IMG/VR virus record: IMGVR_UViG_3300035703_000311
Coordinates: 1 to 31,544 of that record
From: a virus
DNA: 31,544 nt
Strand: one strand, 5' to 3'
Below, in pieces: positions 2,613 to 31,544 of this stretch; positions within the stretch are counted from its first letter, which is position 1, and every line of letters starts with the position of its first letter. The position numbers and the translations under genes were made by a program. The notes under the pieces are model-generated. The model worked only from the letters and a program-made list of their open reading frames with translations, did not search any database and was not told where the DNA came from.

Positions 2613-2857
2613 CGGTTGGTCAGTTGCAGGATGACAACGGTCAGCCCTGCCGAGGCAAGGCCATAAACGGGGGCGAGCATCCAGTCGCAGGTGAGCAAGG
2701 TGAGGACAAATCCTGTCCAAAACGATAGGCAAGTCACGCAGGAGAATGGCTTGTGCCTTCCCAGCCATGTGCGATACCAAGCCTGCGGCAGGACGTGGTA
2801 CTCGGCAATGGCGAGGGCGGTCAAACTGCTAACGAGTAGCGTCAGGATTACTTCCAT
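2609..2857 (-). CDS. Small membrane protein with CVTCLSFWTGF motif
   Basis: 82 residues with hydrophobic segments near 2-19, 44-58 and 60-79 and a C40-x2-C43 followed by LSFWTGF. The C-x-x-C-(L)SFW pattern beside a membrane helix resembles the DUF1360-like group of small phage and bacterial membrane proteins of unknown function. It begins inside the last 29 bases of the sigma-like gene and ends in an ATGA overlap with the 87-aa gene. Likely inserted in the inner membrane; role unknown. Confidence 0.6.
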   Translation of the reverse strand: MEVILTLLVSSLTALAIAEYHVLPQAWYRTWLGRHKPFSCVTCLSFWTGFVLTLLTCDWMLAPVYGLASAGLTVVILQLTNR

Positions 2858-3380
2858 GTTTTAGTAGAATTGCGGCTTTGATTTTGGCCTTGGCTTGCTC
2901 GATGGAATAAATGACCGAGCGATAGGGGATGCCTGTATCTCTTGACAACTTCTTCATGTTCCCTGTCGCCATGTGCAGTTTCAGCAGTTCCTTGTCATAC
3001 GGAAACGCCCCCTCCTTCGCCCAAGAATCCATCTCCGATTCGGCAATCGCCCACATATCGTCAACGAGGGAACTGTACTCTTCGTGGGTCATATCAGCGT
3101 TTGGGTCGATTTCCTCCGTGATGTCGTGATGCCTGTACTTTTGGGCGAACTGGTTGTTCTTGCCTCGGTACAGGTTCAGCAGGAGGCGCACGACGTAGAA
3201 TTTGAAGTACCCCTGCTCTTGAATTTGCAGAATCTTGGCGGGGTCTTTTTCGAGCAGGATGAGGACGCATTCCTGTTCCAAGTCCCTCCAAAGCGGGTCA
3301 CCGCCTGTGATGGTGATGCAGGCCTTCTTGATTTCGCCTGAACGATAGAGGTCAAGGATTACGGTTTCGGCTGACTGCAT
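2829..3380 (-). CDS. Sigma-70-like factor / transcription regulator
   Basis: 183 residues from the ATG at 3380. Residues about 27-82 (PLWRDLEQECVLILLEKDP...FYVVRLLLNLYRGKNNQFAQKYR) look like sigma region 2, and residues about 143-172 (KKLSRDTGIPYRSVIYSIEQAKAKIKAAI) like a region 4 helix-turn-helix. This layout matches small ECF-like phage sigma factors. The gene stands first in the late unit: it follows a strong terminator (3395-3427) and has a -7 box (3391-3384) three bases from the ATG. An upstream in-frame start exists, but it would place the terminator inside the gene. Inference: it directs host RNA polymerase to late promoters. An alternative is a DNA-binding regulator without sigma activity. 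Confidence 0.6.
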   Translation of the reverse strand: MQSAETVILDLYRSGEIKKACITITGGDPLWRDLEQECVLILLEKDPAKILQIQEQGYFKFYVVRLLLNLYRGKNNQFAQKYRHHDITEEIDPNADMTHEEYSSLVDDMWAIAESEMDSWAKEGAFPYDKELLKLHMATGNMKKLSRDTGIPYRSVIYSIEQAKAKIKAAILLKHGSNPDATR

Positions 3381-3383
3381 ATG

Positions 3384-3391
3384 CAAAGGTA
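3384..3391 (-). promoter_or_regulatory. -7 box TACCTTTG driving the sigma-like gene
   Basis: TACCTTTG matches the Bacteroidetes -7 consensus TAnnTTTG exactly and is separated from the ATG at 3380 by only CAT. Since the element is centred at about -7, transcription would begin at or next to the A of the ATG, giving a leaderless mRNA. It abuts the T tract of the terminator at 3395-3427. No clear -33 TTG; CTG lies at the expected distance. Confidence 0.55.
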
Positions 3392-3394
3392 TGC

Positions 3395-3427
3395 AAAAAA
3401 ATAGGGGGATGCAGTTAAGCACCCCCC
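3395..3427 (-). terminator. Intrinsic terminator ending the replication unit
   Basis: On the minus strand GGGGGGTGC (3427-3419), loop TTAACT, GCATCCCCC (3412-3404), then TATTTTTTT. The 9-bp stem contains one G-U pair. It lies about 60 bases after the stop of the DnaA-domain-IV-like gene and immediately before the promoter of the sigma-like gene. Confidence 0.85.
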
Positions 3428-3485
3428 CATCCGAATCTCACGGATTTGCCGATTATCGTAGGCTCACCGACGACGTAAGTCGCAC

Positions 3486-4522: not shown

Positions 4523-5955
4523 TATTGTAGGATTTTGAATCGGTCTTTGTTGTGGTACACCCAACCCGGCTTGTATCCCATGAAGGCGATAAATTGCAGG
4601 GCTTCCTCTTTGGTCTTGCATTGTGTGTGCAATACCCAATATGGCGAAATTACCTTGGCTTTCGCAAGTTGTGCCTTTTGGTACATGGTGCTGGTCTTGG
4701 CCGCTTCCATCCCTTGGGCCTTGGTCATCAGGTGTAGGGTAACAGTTTCGGCACGCTCTTGGGGTTTGCGCTCGTACTCGTACTTGCAATGCGGGCAAAC
4801 CATCACGGCAACAGGAATGAGAGCATCGCAAGCCTTGCAGTTCTTCGCTCCGCCAACGCCATCGGACTTGCGCTTGCGTTTCTTCTTCAGCGACCAATCA
4901 CGCCTCGCATCCCAAAACCCATGGTGGTTGACGTTGTTGCCGAAGTCAAGGATGGTAAACTCTCGCTTGGTTGTGGTTACACGGGAACCACGGCCCACCA
5001 TCTGCATATAGAGGGGCAGGCTTGCCGTTGCTCTATACAGGATAACCACCTCAATGGTTGGCTCGTCAAAGCCCGTGGTCATCAGGTCGCAGTTGCACAG
5101 GATAGCATCGGGCGTGTTCTTGAACCAATCCAGCACGGCGGCACGCTCTTGCTTGCGCATATCCCCATCCACATGGCGGGCGTTATGCCCTGCAATCTGC
5201 AAAGCGTTGCAGACCTCTTTGCTCGATGCGATGTTGCTGGCAAACAGAATCGCCTTCTTGCCTCTGCAGTGGCGGCCGTAGTTCTGGACAACGCCATCGA
5301 ATACCTTGCGCTTTGAGTACACCGAAGCCATCTGCTCGGTGTCGTAGTCATTGCCCTTCATGCGAATGCCCGACAAGTCCATGGTCATGCCGTAAGTTAT
5401 GGGGCTTGCCAAGAACCCTTGGTCAATCAGTTCCTGTACCTGCACTGGATTATGCAGGGCTTGGTAGAACTTGGAAAGGCACTCTTGGTTCCCACGGCGC
5501 AGGGGCGTTGCCGTGGCCCCGATGACTACGGCGTTGGGGTTGATGTAGGGCAGCAGTGGGTTGAAGGTTTGCTTGTGCGCTTCGTCAATGATGACCAAGT
5601 CCATCCCCGCAATGAGATCGGCGTAGTCAGCGTTGTTCTTGCGGCGGGAATAGGTCTGCGCCATGGCTATGAAACATGATCCCGATACGTCCAATCGGGT
5701 CTTGCCTGCCTCGATCAATGTCGGCACGATCCCGAACTGGTCAAGCGCGCCGTTGGATTGCTTCAGCAGTTCTGCCCGATCGGTGAAGATCATGCACCGT
5801 TTACCTCGTTGCAGGGCGGAGGCCACCATGTAGGTGAACATAACTGTCTTTCCGCTTCCAGTGGGAGCGCAGAGGATGATTCGCTTCTTGCCCGCTGCGA
5901 TACTTGTCCGCATCAGGTCAATAGCTTTGGTTTGGTAGGGTCTAAGCGTAGTCAC
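4522..5955 (-). CDS. Superfamily II DEAH-box helicase
   Basis: 477 residues. LRPYQTKAI at 4-12 is the usual N-terminal motif, Walker A APTGSGKT at 30-37, DEAH at 124-127, GATATP at 146-151, TGFDEPT around 294-300 and motif VI QMVGRGSR at 318-325. The C-terminus has four cysteines (373, 376, 387, 390) that could form a zinc ribbon. It resembles RecQ/UvsW/SSL2-type phage helicases that unwind or remodel replication and recombination intermediates. The start must be the GTG at 5955: a TGA lies three codons upstream and the next ATG would delete the LRPYQ motif. That GTG falls inside a copy of the GTAGTCAC/GTGACTAC repeat, so a protein bound there could affect its expression. Confidence 0.88.
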   Translation of the reverse strand: MTTLRPYQTKAIDLMRTSIAAGKKRIILCAPTGSGKTVMFTYMVASALQRGKRCMIFTDRAELLKQSNGALDQFGIVPTLIEAGKTRLDVSGSCFIAMAQTYSRRKNNADYADLIAGMDLVIIDEAHKQTFNPLLPYINPNAVVIGATATPLRRGNQECLSKFYQALHNPVQVQELIDQGFLASPITYGMTMDLSGIRMKGNDYDTEQMASVYSKRKVFDGVVQNYGRHCRGKKAILFASNIASSKEVCNALQIAGHNARHVDGDMRKQERAAVLDWFKNTPDAILCNCDLMTTGFDEPTIEVVILYRATASLPLYMQMVGRGSRVTTTKREFTILDFGNNVNHHGFWDARRDWSLKKKRKRKSDGVGGAKNCKACDALIPVAVMVCPHCKYEYERKPQERAETVTLHLMTKAQGMEAAKTSTMYQKAQLAKAKVISPYWVLHTQCKTKEEALQFIAFMGYKPGWVYHNKDRFKILQ

Positions 5956-8385: not shown

Positions 8386-8394
8386 AGGGTAAGA

Positions 8395-8427
8395 TAAAAA
8401 AACCCCGACTGATTGCAGCAGCCGGGG
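8395..8427 (-). terminator. Intrinsic terminator before the primase gene
   Basis: Minus-strand stem CCCCGGCTG (8427-8419), loop CTGCAAT, CAGTCGGGG (8411-8403), followed by eight T's (8402-8395). The 9-bp stem has one G-U pair. It separates the early unit from the replication unit. The sequence right after it, TATCTTACCCTATG, places a degenerate -7-like box three bases from the primase ATG at 8385. Confidence 0.85.
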
Positions 8428-8521
8428 CGGGGGTTAAGAGGGAACCCTTTATCGAAAGCACCATTTGGCTGCAATTACAAATGGGCTATATTGGTAAATG
8501 TAAACTTAGGGCAAATTTACA
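8428..8521 (-). other. Non-coding leader between SSB-like gene and terminator
   Basis: 94 bases with no credible gene. It carries an exact -7 box TAAATTTG (8519-8512) starting two bases after the SSB-like stop codon, and a perfect 7-bp inverted repeat CCATTTG (8461-8467) / CAAATGG (8478-8484). A transcript from that box would run about 110 bases, fold at the inverted repeat and stop at 8395. It could be a short RNA, or an attenuated leader of the primase mRNA. Confidence 0.35.
8512..8519 (-). promoter_or_regulatory. Putative -7 box TAAATTTG
   Basis: Exact TAnnTTTG octamer two bases beyond the stop of the SSB-like gene. No ATG follows closely, unlike the other boxes, so it would produce a non-coding leader ending at the terminator at 8395-8427 or, on read-through, the primase mRNA. 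No clear -33 element was identified. Confidence 0.35.
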
Positions 8522-8770
8522 CTAAAATGGCAAATCATCGCCATCTTTTTGTGGAGATGGTGCAGATTGTTGCTGTTCTTGCATCGGCTCGACCTTGCCG
8601 CTCAGGAACTTCCTGCCTCCGTTGGCTGATTCACGCACCCATGCGGAGAGGCGCATCTTGGTTCCATCGGGCATAATTAGTTCCCCACGGTAATCAGGAC
8701 GCTTGGGGTTGTCGCCTTTGTCGTTGGCGAACAGGGAGAAGGTGTTGGGTTGTGGGGTGTAGTTGCTCAT
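8522..8770 (-). CDS. Small SSB-like single-stranded DNA-binding protein
   Basis: 82 residues: an N-terminal compact beta-rich region (NTFSLFANDKGDNPKRPDYRGELIMPDGTKMRLSAW...) and a Gln/Ser/Pro-rich linker ending in the acidic tail DGDDLPF. The terminal DDLPF resembles the SSB C-terminal DDIPF peptide that recruits replication partners. It is shorter than bacterial SSB, so a trimmed OB fold is possible. Position between recombination-type genes and the primase supports a role in phage DNA replication. The leader TTTAACCCCCAACCCCATG lacks a Shine-Dalgarno site. It is the last gene of the early unit. Confidence 0.65.
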   Translation of the reverse strand: MSNYTPQPNTFSLFANDKGDNPKRPDYRGELIMPDGTKMRLSAWVRESANGGRKFLSGKVEPMQEQQQSAPSPQKDGDDLPF

Positions 8771-10576: not shown

Positions 10577-10584
10577 TAAATTTG
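10577..10584 (+). promoter_or_regulatory. -7 box TAAATTTG of the plus-strand lysis unit
   Basis: Exact TAnnTTTG octamer four bases before the ATG at 10589, so transcription should start at or beside the start codon. It overlaps the second GGTATAAATT repeat. No TTG at the usual -33 distance. Confidence 0.5.
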
Positions 10585-10588
10585 CATC

Positions 10589-10840
10589 ATGACCTACCAC
10601 TCCACTCGACCTGCAAAAGCCCTCACAAACGCCTTGGAGCGGCTTATGATTTCAATTTCAGCCCAAGAACTGGAAGAGAACCACGTCCTCCTTTGCGAGT
10701 ACAGGCGTGCCTGCGACTTACTGGGCTACGACCCTGCCAAAGCCCAATGGAGTAACGTCGAGGGCGTGAATGCGTCAGGATTGCCCAACGACGAGGACCA
10801 CACCATTGACTACTACTATTTGCTAAACCCTGAAGAATAG
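10589..10840 (+). CDS. 83-aa hypothetical protein upstream of endolysin
   Basis: Starts MTYHSTRPAKALTNALERLMISISAQELEENH, a mostly helical N-terminus, and ends with an acidic stretch (NDEDHTIDYYYLLNPEE). It is one of only two genes on the plus strand and ends two bases before the amidase gene, so the two form a small operon. A -7 box lies four bases before the ATG. No family was recognised; there is no membrane segment, so it is not an obvious holin. Confidence 0.6.
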   Translation: MTYHSTRPAKALTNALERLMISISAQELEENHVLLCEYRRACDLLGYDPAKAQWSNVEGVNASGLPNDEDHTIDYYYLLNPEE

Positions 10841-19038: not shown

Positions 19039-20112
19039 TCACAATTTGCGCCCGATGCTTCGGTAGAGTTCGGCTCTGCGCTCAGCGGTCTTGCGGATGT
19101 CAAACCTTTCCCTCACGTCCTTGCTCAACTGCACGGCCAAGGATTTGGCGTAGTCAGGCTCGTTCACAAACTTGCGGACTGCCTTGTACCATGCGTCCTT
19201 TTTGCCGTAGGGAATGACCAAACCATTGTGGCCATGCACCAAGATGTCTGTATATGGGATGGTTTCGGATGCTATTATCGCCTTGCCCATCCAGCCTGCC
19301 TCGACTACCTTCAACTCGGATTTGAGGCGGTTGAACTTCGTATCTCGCAGGGGTGCTATCGTTGCGTTGATGAAGTTATAGCCTCCCACATAGGAATAGA
19401 TGTCAGCGGCTTGGATTCTGCCGTAGTTCGCATTTTTGCCGTTGCAGGATAGCATCCGCTCGTAGTCTACATAGACGGGGTTTTCGTTCCATCCACCGAG
19501 GTAGATTTTGTATCTCCCATCAAGCGAATGGTCATGGGCAAGCAAGCCAAACGAATGCTCCACCAAGGCAATATCCTCCTGATGCTGCGCCCCGCCAAAC
19601 CATCCAATCTTGAACAGGTGCGGTTCTGGTTCTGCCGTCGTGTCGGGAATGTACTGCTGATACGCTTCGTACGGTTCATTCGGCAGGATGGTTACGTTCT
19701 TGTTCAGCAAGCGAATCTTCTGCGCAAGGTGTTCGGTGGTGGTGGTCACATGGTCAGCCAAGCGGATATGCTCCCGTATCTGCTCATCCAATTTGGTGGA
19801 CAGGTAATGGCGGTACATGATATGCCCCGATTCCAGCACCCAGTAGTCATCTAAGTCCAAGATGACCTTCGCTCCAAAAGCCGTCAGGGCCTTGTAGACA
19901 TTGCGAATTTGGTCAAGCGTGCCTTGACACCACAAGCGATTAAAAAGCCATATATCGACCGTCTTCAAGTCCTCATCGTTGACGTTGGCGATGTTGTCCA
20001 CGCATACATAATCGAACTCCGTGTAGTTGTCGCCAAGGTATGCGTTCGGCATCTCAAGTCGGTAAAAGGAACACCCCGTTGGGTGAGCATTGTAAACGAT
20101 GCAAATTCTCAT
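19039..20112 (-). CDS. Glycosyltransferase, GT4-like (GT-B fold)
   Basis: 357 residues from MRICIVYNAHPTGCSFYRLEMP. The C-terminal half has FKIGWFGGAQHQED (start of the donor-binding domain) and ELKVVEAGWMGKAIIAS, the E-x4-E-containing loop typical of GT4 retaining transferases, then HNGLVIPYG. It would transfer a sugar from a nucleotide-sugar to an acceptor that is probably a virion protein or glycan, or a host surface glycan. It heads late unit 2, upstream of virion and portal genes, behind a terminator-coupled promoter. The ATG chosen (20112) is three bases from a -7 box; longer upstream frames cross the terminator. Confidence 0.8.
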   Translation of the reverse strand: MRICIVYNAHPTGCSFYRLEMPNAYLGDNYTEFDYVCVDNIANVNDEDLKTVDIWLFNRLWCQGTLDQIRNVYKALTAFGAKVILDLDDYWVLESGHIMYRHYLSTKLDEQIREHIRLADHVTTTTEHLAQKIRLLNKNVTILPNEPYEAYQQYIPDTTAEPEPHLFKIGWFGGAQHQEDIALVEHSFGLLAHDHSLDGRYKIYLGGWNENPVYVDYERMLSCNGKNANYGRIQAADIYSYVGGYNFINATIAPLRDTKFNRLKSELKVVEAGWMGKAIIASETIPYTDILVHGHNGLVIPYGKKDAWYKAVRKFVNEPDYAKSLAVQLSKDVRERFDIRKTAERRAELYRSIGRKL

Positions 20113-20115
20113 GCA

Positions 20116-20123
20116 CAAAGGTA
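20116..20123 (-). promoter_or_regulatory. -7 box TACCTTTG driving late unit 2
   Basis: TACCTTTG is identical to the box before the sigma-like gene (3391-3384) and is again separated by three bases (TGC) from the ATG. It begins two bases after the T tract of the terminator at 20125-20155. TTC lies 20 bases upstream, a weak candidate -33. Confidence 0.55.
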
Positions 20124-20124
20124 C

Positions 20125-20155
20125 AAAAAAAAAGGCCACCCCCGAAGAGATGGCC
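20125..20155 (-). terminator. Intrinsic terminator with UUCG tetraloop
   Basis: Minus strand: GGCCATCTC (20155-20147), TTCG, GGGGTGGCC (20142-20134), then nine T's (20133-20125). The nine-pair stem includes two G-U pairs, and the UUCG loop is unusually stable. It ends the tail tube unit and lies just upstream of the late unit 2 promoter. Confidence 0.9.
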
Positions 20156-20190
20156 TTAACCACTAAACCATGCGGAGTATGAGTGCCGCA
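20125..20190 (-). ncRNA. Candidate ~65-nt small RNA
   Basis: TATCTTTG (20201-20194), an exact -7 box two bases after the tail tube stop codon, would begin a transcript near 20190 that ends at the terminator 20125. The predicted RNA has a 5-bp hairpin TGCGG (20187-20183) / CCGCA (20172-20168), with a 10-base loop, and the strong terminator hairpin. The 13-base block containing the box recurs exactly at the early promoter (10449-10461). No convincing reading frame is present. This is prediction only; it could equally be a 3' UTR with an incidental box. Confidence 0.35.
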
Positions 20191-20193
20191 GGT

Positions 20194-20201
20194 CAAAGAT
20201 A
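20194..20201 (-). promoter_or_regulatory. -7 box TATCTTTG after the tail tube gene
   Basis: Exact TAnnTTTG octamer located two bases beyond the TAG stop of the tail tube gene, in the 13-bp block shared with the early promoter at 10449-10461. It would drive the candidate short RNA, or late unit 2 if the terminator is bypassed. Confidence 0.4.
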
Positions 20202-20203
20202 CT

Positions 20204-20734
20204 CTACGATCCGCTGATTTGCGTTGCGGAAGCAGAGAAAGTTGTGCTTGCGATGAGCAGCATCGGGTTTGTTTCCATACCCGACAAAGTCATCTCGTAG
20301 CCTGAACGGTCACCGAATGCAGTACCAGTTCCAGCAGTACCCGCAGTTGCCTCCAATCCGTTGTCAGCACCAAGCAACCAGTATCTGCTGTTGTTGTCTT
20401 GCACGATGACAATCAAACGATTGCGAGCCAAGAGGCGCAGTTCATTGCGGACCGCTACCTGCAACTTGTTGATGGTGAAGGTGACTTCAGGTGTGTAGAA
20501 CAGCGTGCCGTTCTCGACGCTGGCGTTCAGCGTTTCGGTCATCGAAGAAGTGGCCTTGGTCAAGTCGTACTCGAAGAACGACCCTGACGCATAACCTGTA
20601 AATCCAGTAACCGTTCCGCTTCCGTTGGTGTTTATCGAACCCGTAGGGTTGAAGGCTTGAACGTAGATAGTTTTGATGCCGCCGATTGAATCTCGGCATC
20701 CGAGGGCGTAGCCCGTAGTTAAGGAGCAGGACAT
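20204..20734 (-). CDS. Putative major tail tube protein
   Basis: 176 residues: MSCSLTTGYALGCRDSIGGIKTIYVQAFNPTGSI, then FFEYDLTKATSSMTETLNASVENGTLFYTPEVTFTINKLQVAVRNELRLLARNRLIVIVQDNN and SGYEMTLSGMETNPMLLI. The SFTET...ENGT..Y...V..T..KL.......E...L pattern is one I associate with tail tube proteins of Bacteroidetes phages. It follows the major capsid gene but is separated from it by a terminator, suggesting a separate promoter or read-through control of the copy number ratio of capsid to tube. Confidence 0.6.
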   Translation of the reverse strand: MSCSLTTGYALGCRDSIGGIKTIYVQAFNPTGSINTNGSGTVTGFTGYASGSFFEYDLTKATSSMTETLNASVENGTLFYTPEVTFTINKLQVAVRNELRLLARNRLIVIVQDNNSRYWLLGADNGLEATAGTAGTGTAFGDRSGYEMTLSGMETNPMLLIASTTFSASATQISGS

Positions 20735-20765: not shown

Positions 20766-20795
20766 AAAAAAGCGGGGGGAAGTTGCCCTCCCCCC
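20766..20795 (-). terminator. Intrinsic terminator after the major capsid gene
   Basis: Minus-strand GGGGGG AG (20795-20788), loop, TTCCCCCC (20781-20774), followed by GC and TTTTTT (20771-20766). Six G-C pairs plus an A-T and a G-U pair. It lies six bases after the capsid stop codon and before the tail tube gene. Confidence 0.8.
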
Positions 20796-30409: not shown

Positions 30410-31069
30410 CTAAAAAGTAACGACAAATTTATCAGGCGCAGGCCATCCCTTGCAGGAGTTGTACACGGTCATCCCTTCCCGCTTCCCAATCCAATGCTCT
30501 GCCTGCCAGCGGTGTTCTCGGACAGGTTCTCCGAGTTCTCGGATATGGCTTGACTTGGCCCACCAGAACGTGCCAGCGAAATAGGGGTATCCATCGGGGT
30601 TGTTGTGGTCTGCAATTTGGGGGAACTCCTCCTTGGTCAGCCAATAGGCTCCAACCGCATCCACGTTCTCCAGTTCTGCAAGACACCGCTCCCAAGCGAC
30701 GACATTGAAGAAAATCATCGACCTGCACCACAGTTGGTTTATCAGTGATGGGTCGGAACTGCCCTTAGTATGAGCGTACAGGTACACGGCATCCTCATCC
30801 TGACTAGCTTTGTACATCTCGGTCAGTGTCGCCTGCTCCCATGCGTTGGTGCGGGTGACCACGACCTTGACCTTGTGGGCGATGAGCGACCCCTCCAAGA
30901 TTTCCTTCACGGCTTTCCTCTGCTCTGGTGGACCAACGATGCCCACCCGAATCTCGTCAAGCCTGTCGATGAGGCCGTAGTTGCACAGGGCCATCATGTG
31001 TTGATTCATGATAAGTTGCCATTGGCCGCCGCCTCCGCAATAGATGTGGTAGTAGTGGATGAGTTTCAT
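30410..31069 (-). CDS. Glycosyltransferase-like protein
   Basis: 219 residues: MKLIHYYHIYCGGGGQWQLIMNQHMM, then DAVYLYAHTKGSSDPSLINQLWCRSMIFF, VDAVGAYWLTKEE and YPYFAGTFWWAKSSHIRELG. The Y.HTKG and FAGTFWWA blocks occur in proteins annotated as glycosyltransferases or of unknown function in surface-glycan loci, and I think of it as a divergent GT-A type. ATGA overlap with the upstream 29-aa peptide. Its first 64 bases are duplicated at 1-64 because of the terminal overlap. Confidence 0.6.
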   Translation of the reverse strand: MKLIHYYHIYCGGGGQWQLIMNQHMMALCNYGLIDRLDEIRVGIVGPPEQRKAVKEILEGSLIAHKVKVVVTRTNAWEQATLTEMYKASQDEDAVYLYAHTKGSSDPSLINQLWCRSMIFFNVVAWERCLAELENVDAVGAYWLTKEEFPQIADHNNPDGYPYFAGTFWWAKSSHIRELGEPVREHRWQAEHWIGKREGMTVYNSCKGWPAPDKFVVTF

Positions 31070-31155
31070 AGGGAAGCGATTGCAAAAATCAAGACCAATA
31101 GCAGGACGAATCTGCCAAAAATCAAAAGCGTGTCAAGGATGCGTTCGGGGTTCAT
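31066..31155 (-). CDS. 29-aa membrane peptide (right-copy allele)
   Basis: Same gene as 61-150 but beginning MNPERILDTLL. Here the ATG overlaps the TGA of the extra 65-aa gene (ATGA), so the three genes 65-aa, 29-aa and glycosyltransferase are chained by two ATGA overlaps. Hydrophobic core identical to the other allele. Confidence 0.6.
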   Translation of the reverse strand: MNPERILDTLLIFGRFVLLLVLIFAIASL

Positions 31156-31349
31156 TTAAGTAGCAAGTCTATTCTTTCGTACAAAACGGTGCTATAAGTT
31201 TTCATTGCTTGATATTGAACTCTCATTAGTCCAAGCATAACTTTATCAATCGATTGAGCCTCATCGCTTTCAATAAAATCATGAAGTTTAGCCATTTTTG
31301 TGTGAAGTTCGTTTCTTTCATCTAATAGGCGCACGACAAAATCTTTCAT
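31152..31349 (-). CDS. 65-aa crAss001_48-type small protein, present in only one allele
   Basis: Reads MKDFVVRLLDERNELHTKMAKLHDFI and ends with MRVQYQAMKTYSTVLYERIDLLLK. The pattern (E..EL..K..KL..FI, then L...Q...M..Y...L..RI) matches the crAss001_48-related small proteins found widely in phages; function unknown, likely helical hairpin/coiled coil. Start set at ATG 31349; a non-ATG start at 31376 would overlap the putative -7 box. The leader TTAAACCCCTAAACAATATG has the recurring AAACC motif. Its stop overlaps the 29-aa ATG (ATGA). Absent from the left copy. Confidence 0.72.
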   Translation of the reverse strand: MKDFVVRLLDERNELHTKMAKLHDFIESDEAQSIDKVMLGLMRVQYQAMKTYSTVLYERIDLLLK

Positions 31350-31373
31350 ATTGTTTAGGGGTTTAAGTTTATG

Positions 31374-31381
31374 CAAAGTTA
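31374..31381 (-). promoter_or_regulatory. -7 box TAACTTTG in the long allele
   Basis: Same octamer as at 162-155, overlapping the terL stop, but here followed by a 24-base leader before the 65-aa gene rather than directly by the 29-aa gene. Confidence 0.35.
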
Positions 31382-31544
31382 CACCACAACATACTTACCC
31401 GAATTGCTTACCCTCAATTTGTTGAGAGCCACATAACGCAGGGCATCGCAGGCGTGGTTGAACGAATCGATGGGAACCCCCGTGTCCTTGCCCTCTTTGT
31501 CGGTGGCCCAAGTGTACGAGCGGAGTTCCTTTATCAGGTTTGTC
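31379..31544 (-). CDS. terL: Terminase large subunit, 3' fragment (second allele)
   Basis: The last 54 codons of terL from the alternative variant. Identical in DNA to 199-325 for the upstream part, then differs at the extreme C-terminus (LRVSNSGKYVVV). Cut by the window edge; part of the terminal overlap, not an extra gene. Confidence 0.85.
   Translation of the reverse strand, partial: TNLIKELRSYTWATDKEGKDTGVPIDSFNHACDALRYVALNKLRVSNSGKYVVV

Follow-up and report, generated by a model that had tools for sequence, protein, structure and literature searches.

On the minus strand of a phage genome we find two places (3378–3432 and 20110–20157) at which an intrinsic terminator is, quite probably, fused to a promoter for the Bacteroidota housekeeping sigma factor that is set for a transcription start at the ATG of the following gene or within one base of it. 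The case is carried by the anatomy of the two sites, their conservation, the covariation of the stems, the fixed spacing and the recurrence of the arrangement in unrelated viral contigs. Leaderless starts as such are already known from Bacteroidota (PMC7366714, PMC9723704); the two modules represent known parts in a new combination, which is recurrent in viruses of these bacteria. The literature that we covered in part yielded no description of the terminator fusion, of its recurrence in unrelated viruses or of a higher viral share of leaderless spacing. Phages of Bacteroidota are abundant, and the timing of their gene expression is little known. A compact module of fixed geometry that closes one unit and opens another is searchable from sequence alone and predicts transcription starts within a base. 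It also makes leaderless translation directly testable in a phylum whose genes lack Shine-Dalgarno sequences (PMC6847099).

Anatomy and conservation of the modules

The window, i.e. the whole stretch of DNA that was analysed, is a virus record of 31,544 bases. Nearly all of its genes lie on the minus strand, to which the coordinates below refer unless the plus strand is named. Close relatives of the window genes occur in hundreds of IMG/VR contigs, and distant relationships via primase, portal and terminase lead to phages of Flavobacteriia, namely Nonlabens P12024S/L, Cellulophaga phi46:1 and Flavobacterium phages. The virus family consists of freshwater viruses of Bacteroidota-type bacteria.

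A sequence-only reading of this DNA had proposed three modules of one type, each composed of a terminator, a -7 element and an ATG, at the heads of the units B, C and E. Two of them proved exact and conserved. Module 1 begins with a terminator stem-loop (3399–3432), which has a GC-rich core of 9 bp (GGGGGGTGC/GCATCCCCC), 14 pairs when the flanking A-U pairs are included, and covarying pairs in relatives. The seven T of the terminator U tract (3395–3401) fall at about -16 to -22 in the usual promoter numbering, and runs of five to nine T occupy this place in the 80 relatives. They are followed by GCA, the -7 element TACCTTTG of the housekeeping sigma type (3384–3391), CAT, and the ATG (3378–3380), which would be the 5′ end of a leaderless mRNA. 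Module 2 has the same order: a terminator stem-loop supported by fold and relatives (20132–20157), a tract of nine T (20125–20133), the -7 element TACCTTTG (20116–20123), TGC, and the ATG of a glycosyltransferase gene (20110–20112). Both terminators show a GC-rich stem, a loop of 3–8 nt and a T tract immediately after, with pairing kept through two-sided changes. In their stem, short loop and tract of seven to nine T they are like any intrinsic (Rho-independent) terminator; they differ in that the T tract is promoter DNA as well.

Relatives were fetched by the downstream gene (80 for the sigma-like gene behind module 1, 80 for the glycosyltransferase and 65 for the primase, 56 of the latter with the start covered), and the stretch preceding each ATG was scored per relative. 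Before the sigma-like gene, the -7 element reads TAHHTTTG in 40/80 and AATCTTTG, a variant that has lost the first T (T-12), in 39/80. In 79/80 exactly 3 nt separate the element from the start codon; in L031, the one deviating case, a GTG start lies, by our reading, 5 nt past the element. Before the glycosyltransferase gene TAHHTTTG is present in 71/80, with a gap of 3 nt in 59 relatives and of 4 nt in 21, so that all 80 fall within 3–4 nt. In both modules the gap bases vary while the gap length is fixed, and the terminator stems retain their pairing despite base changes. A search of the window for T6-N4-TANNTTTG-N3-ATG with up to two mismatches returned modules 1 and 2 only, where 0.05 matches are expected, and none of 400 dinucleotide shuffles of the window contained T6, TAHHTTTG, 3–4 nt and ATG in this order.

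The third proposed module, in front of the primase gene, fared differently. Its stem, the octamer TATCTTAC (8389–8396), CCT and the ATG (8385) are present as had been described, but the T tract counts seven T rather than eight. TAHHTTTG occurs between terminator and ATG in none of the 56 relatives, so the candidate degenerate -7 element is not conserved; we judge it to be no promoter and retain only the terminator. A single module type heading all three units can therefore not be upheld. The idea that the module both closes a unit and opens its successor on an apparently leaderless mRNA stands for modules 1 and 2, given their conservation, fixed spacing and the collection-wide test described below, and falls for the primase copy.

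The earlier reading had also missed several signals. These are second, conserved promoters at 20201 and 8519, each upstream of a terminator (in module 2 and module 3, respectively), a conserved promoter at 10577 and a fourth terminator (20795–20774). The promoter at 10577–10584 on the plus strand (TAAATTTG) has no terminator. It lies 4 nt before the ATG at 10589, at the head of the only genes of the plus strand, and would likewise be leaderless. In about 20 relatives the element (TAAATTTG, in one TTAATTTTG-like) is also found 4 nt before the ATG (10577–10589, plus strand).

Putative structured RNAs upstream of the primase and glycosyltransferase genes

The promoter TAAATTTG at 8512–8519, located right after the stop of an SSB-like gene and conserved in relatives as TAAATTTG or TAACTTTG, would give rise to an RNA of about 110 nt up to the terminator. 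For this putative structured RNA (8396–8507), fold prediction and conservation indicate three hairpins, HP1, HP2 and HP3, the last being the terminator. The loop of HP1 (8457–8487) comprises 10 nt and includes ATTGCAG (8475–8469), which is complementary to the whole loop CTGCAAT (8418–8412) of the terminator HP3 (about 8402–8428), and thus a kissing loop is predicted. In relatives the two loops change together (TTCCAG/CTGGAA, TAGCAG/CTGCTA, TTCCGG/CCGGAA, TTGCGG/CCGCAA and TAACGG/CCGTTA). All eight distinct loop pairs are complementary, a result that random re-pairing reached in 0 of 2000 trials. Covariation was counted on a gap-free, hand-trimmed alignment of the hairpin cores with 11 distinct rows. 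All 19 pairs are formed in every row, compared with 33–49% in slid versions, and the covariation score is 0.390 versus 0.171 in shuffles; trimming on the hairpin stems favours these stems, and the loop contact served to choose its own six columns only. The primase leader thus has both two complementary loops and covariation. It has no Rfam match at gathering score. It is a candidate for a new RNA family and offers a clear experimental handle. The prospects that this RNA is a leader controlling primase expression appear balanced.

The promoter of the primase RNA is situated inside an imperfect inverted repeat, TGTAAATTTG ... TTTACATTTAC (8493–8522), which could be an operator; TACATTT in this region is invariant in relatives. 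Nonlabens P12024S/L have distant primase and portal matches, and there the primase gene overlaps the preceding gene and has no such leader.

A second putative structured RNA precedes the glycosyltransferase gene. The conserved promoter TATCTTTG (20194–20201) comes right behind the preceding stop codon and is followed by an RNA of about 60 nt (20125–20189) that consists of a hairpin with the loop CTCATAC, the linker GGTTTAGTGG and the terminator of module 2. The loop shows no variation in 51 sequences, and no Rfam family is matched at gathering score. The loop resembles a Met anticodon loop and complements the ATGAG with which the next gene begins, and the linker GTTTAGTGG is invariant. No tRNA was found in 20130–20190 by ARAGORN.

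The terminators may be attenuators, i.e. an upstream promoter would produce a structured leader RNA and the gene would be expressed via regulated read-through. Overall we give this reading an even chance. For the primase gene it is the favoured one, as the conserved promoter lies right past the preceding stop codon, the conserved structured RNA ends in a terminator, and the relatives have no -7 element between terminator and ATG. For the glycosyltransferase gene, which has a promoter and an RNA of the same kind, it is possible in part; yet here, as in module 1, a conserved -7 element between terminator and ATG makes read-through unneeded, and module 1 showed no promoter further upstream. A non-systematic look revealed no conserved anti-terminator fold. 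Attenuators and riboswitch leaders, e.g. those of purine riboswitches, are 5′ RNAs with loop-loop contacts and a terminator before the gene. The primase leader shares these features. It is unlike them in that the contact uses the terminator loop itself, which also sets this terminator apart from ordinary intrinsic ones; a non-systematic look found no ligand-binding core or alternative fold.

It is somewhat unlikely that the terminator RNAs of modules 2 and 3 are instead free, trans-acting small RNAs, with the downstream genes using their own, unrelated expression signals. Each of these RNAs has its own promoter, a compact fold and a strong terminator, and the loop CTCATAC, unchanged in 51/51 and a complement of the next gene's start, would suit such a function. 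Any target is putative, though, the kissing contact lies within one RNA, and the RNAs are seen only beside the same gene in loci that had been fetched by that gene.

Spacing and the predicted leaderless start

For modules 1 and 2 we return to the terminator-promoter fusion, which most likely, judging from the sequence arrangement, makes a leaderless mRNA. TAHHTTTG at -7, directly behind the intrinsic terminator, would take the promoter role that recruits the housekeeping sigma factor. The terminator T tract (about -14 to -22) would double as the AT-rich promoter stretch near -18, and RNA synthesis would begin at the ATG or within a base of it. At the same time the terminator would shield the new unit from the unit upstream. 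In this scheme we infer that transcription starts at the ATG, that it terminates in vivo at the stem-loop, and that the leaderless mRNA is translated. In Flavobacterium johnsoniae, mapped promoters carry TAHHTTTG at -12 to -5 and are AT-rich near -18 and -28, their -33 element is little evident, and transcription starts 4–5 nt past the -7 element (PMC6847099). The modules are like the promoters of the Bacteroidota housekeeping sigma factor (sigma-ABfr; TTTG/TAnnTTTG, for F. johnsoniae since redefined as TAHHTTTG, PMC6847099) in the -7 octamer, the T-rich stretch near -18 and the closeness to the start, and modules 1 and 2 but not module 3 contain TAHHTTTG. They differ in lacking the -33 TTTG, in being fused to a terminator and in having only 3–4 nt to the ATG. 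No TTTG occurs near -33 in modules 1 and 2, where the terminator stem occupies that stretch; we do not hold it to be required because it is not evident in F. johnsoniae either (PMC6847099).

With a gap of 4 nt, the A of the ATG would be the usual start, whereas with a gap of 3 nt it comes one base early. A start at this A is plausible because a purine is preferred. Several points speak against the scheme: a gap of 3 nt is one base short of the distance mapped in the host, half of the module 1 relatives carry AATCTTTG and thus lack T-12, the -33 TTTG is missing, a terminator this near upstream could cause promoter occlusion, and the viral excess described below shrinks when the selection sites are left out.

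Leaderless mRNAs make up 5.5% in F. psychrophilum (PMC9723704), 5′ UTRs of less than 10 nt are found in 3.7% of the mRNAs of Bacteroides thetaiotaomicron (PMC7366714), and 87% of the leaders in F. johnsoniae exceed 10 nt (PMC6847099). The modules would resemble these leaderless mRNAs in an RNA start at or beside the ATG; in viral contigs, by contrast, such spacing is found more frequently, and a terminator often goes with it. This emerged from a scan of IMG/VR for T7-N0-6-octamer-N0-20-ATG with the octamers TACCTTTG and TATCTTTG and the scrambled controls TGTCATCT and TCTATGTT. The figures are samples among the matches listed (about 120 per scan) after removal of proteins with identical starts. 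Within these listed matches an ORF begins at the ATG in 115/205 cases with the -7 octamers versus 17/202 with the scrambled ones, a stem precedes the T tract in 58 versus 4, and the gap to the ATG is 3–5 nt in 41 versus 4. Stem and gap of 3–5 nt occur together in 13 versus 0 (p 2e-4). The sequence-only reading had asked for a comparison of this kind in other phages; among the matches listed, the layout is commoner with the -7 octamers than with the scrambled ones, and many of the matching viral contigs are unrelated to the phage of the window. When the same scan was run on bacterial genome contigs, nearly all of them from Bacteroidota, a gap of 3–5 nt was found in 8/44 of the matches listed, compared with 25/46 in viral contigs (p 5e-4); stems preceded 9/118 and 27/103, respectively. 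Leaving out the selection sites weakens the viral excess of leaderless spacing to 20/94 versus 12/113 in genome contigs (p 0.05).

Considering all sites 0–40 nt before an ORF start, the spacing of TAHHTTTG is bimodal, with maxima at 3–5 and about 15–40 nt, and the peak is absent with permuted motifs. A spacing of 0–2 nt was found in none of the sets, as one would predict for transcription that begins at the ATG, since a closer ATG would be lost from the mRNA. In the cultured Croceibacter phage P2559S (L591, 4938–4961) a terminator is fused to TATATTTG, 5 nt before the ATG at 4961.

A real promoter followed by an ordinary leader, with the gene starting at a later codon, would account for a gap that falls one base under the usual 4–5 nt, but this is improbable, as the protein similarity in relatives begins at residue 1 of the ATG-started protein and the gap keeps its length while its bases vary. 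It is very improbable that TACCTTTG in front of the ATG serves translation, or is an AT-rich stretch that occurs by chance where genes end, instead of being a promoter. In favour of this reading, A and T abound in terminator T tracts and around starts, and Bacteroidota genes have no Shine-Dalgarno sequences (PMC6847099). Against it, the pattern is absent with scrambled octamers of equal composition, and the octamer also lies 15–40 nt before other starts and never 0–2 nt, as suits a promoter but not a signal in the mRNA.

The sigma-like protein and further elements

The gene headed by module 1 (2829–3380) encodes a protein of 183 aa whose predicted fold resembles that of ECF sigma factors, region 2 coming first and region 4 second. 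The model is of low confidence (pLDDT 63), and its best Foldseek E value is 0.77. Residues 1–90 of this low-confidence model (pLDDT 63) resemble ECF sigma region 2, with Z up to 9.0; sigma factors or sigma-containing complexes fill all of the 26 best rows of the comparison. Residues 96–176 resemble region 4 of sigma-E (2h27, Z 4.8), again on the low-confidence model. Unlike ECF sigma factors, the protein matches no sigma profile of Pfam, nor one of the PDB. A search for close relatives returned no match in named phages; a weak pairwise match (E 0.003) links the protein to gp35 of the Nonlabens phage P12024L, a Sigma70_r2 protein encoded near the terminase gene of that phage. The 183-aa protein is a likely, though still putative, phage sigma factor.

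One may go further and see in all these elements cis-acting, terminator-ended RNAs of an undescribed kind that control units, with a kissing attenuator for the primase and two U tracts that serve as leaderless promoter DNA, including that for the mRNA of a phage sigma factor switching to late genes. Taken as a whole, we consider this wider picture rather unlikely.

Upstream of module 1, a conserved structured element (3432–3483) lies between a DnaA-like gene, to whose 3′ UTR it belongs, and the terminator. It comprises a P1 hairpin and the invariant CCGTGAGATTCGG, and module 1 follows it. Its highly conserved consensus reads GTCGGTSAGC...GATAATMGGC...CCGTGAGATTCGG; other relatives, which form a second group, have an unrelated sequence at this place. 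Scattered chance matches in other contexts aside, the element turned up in viral contigs only ahead of the sigma-like gene, and it has no Rfam match at gathering score. A kissing contact between the module 1 terminator loop and the upstream P1 loop, inspected by eye, was inconsistent between clades and was discarded. Hits to the Rfam families P31, L20 leader, Spot 42 and sbrA remained below gathering scores and are best explained by a shared terminator shape.

The fourth terminator (20774–20795) has a strong, conserved stem, followed by an A-rich leader and the ATG at 20734. It was rejected as a module because no conserved -7 element lies behind it. Finally, the record ends (1–325 and 31006–31544) repeat each other with 94–97% identity, one side containing about 220 extra bases (gene 31152–31376), which perhaps reflects a circular genome in which two strain variants were joined at closure, or a gene gain.
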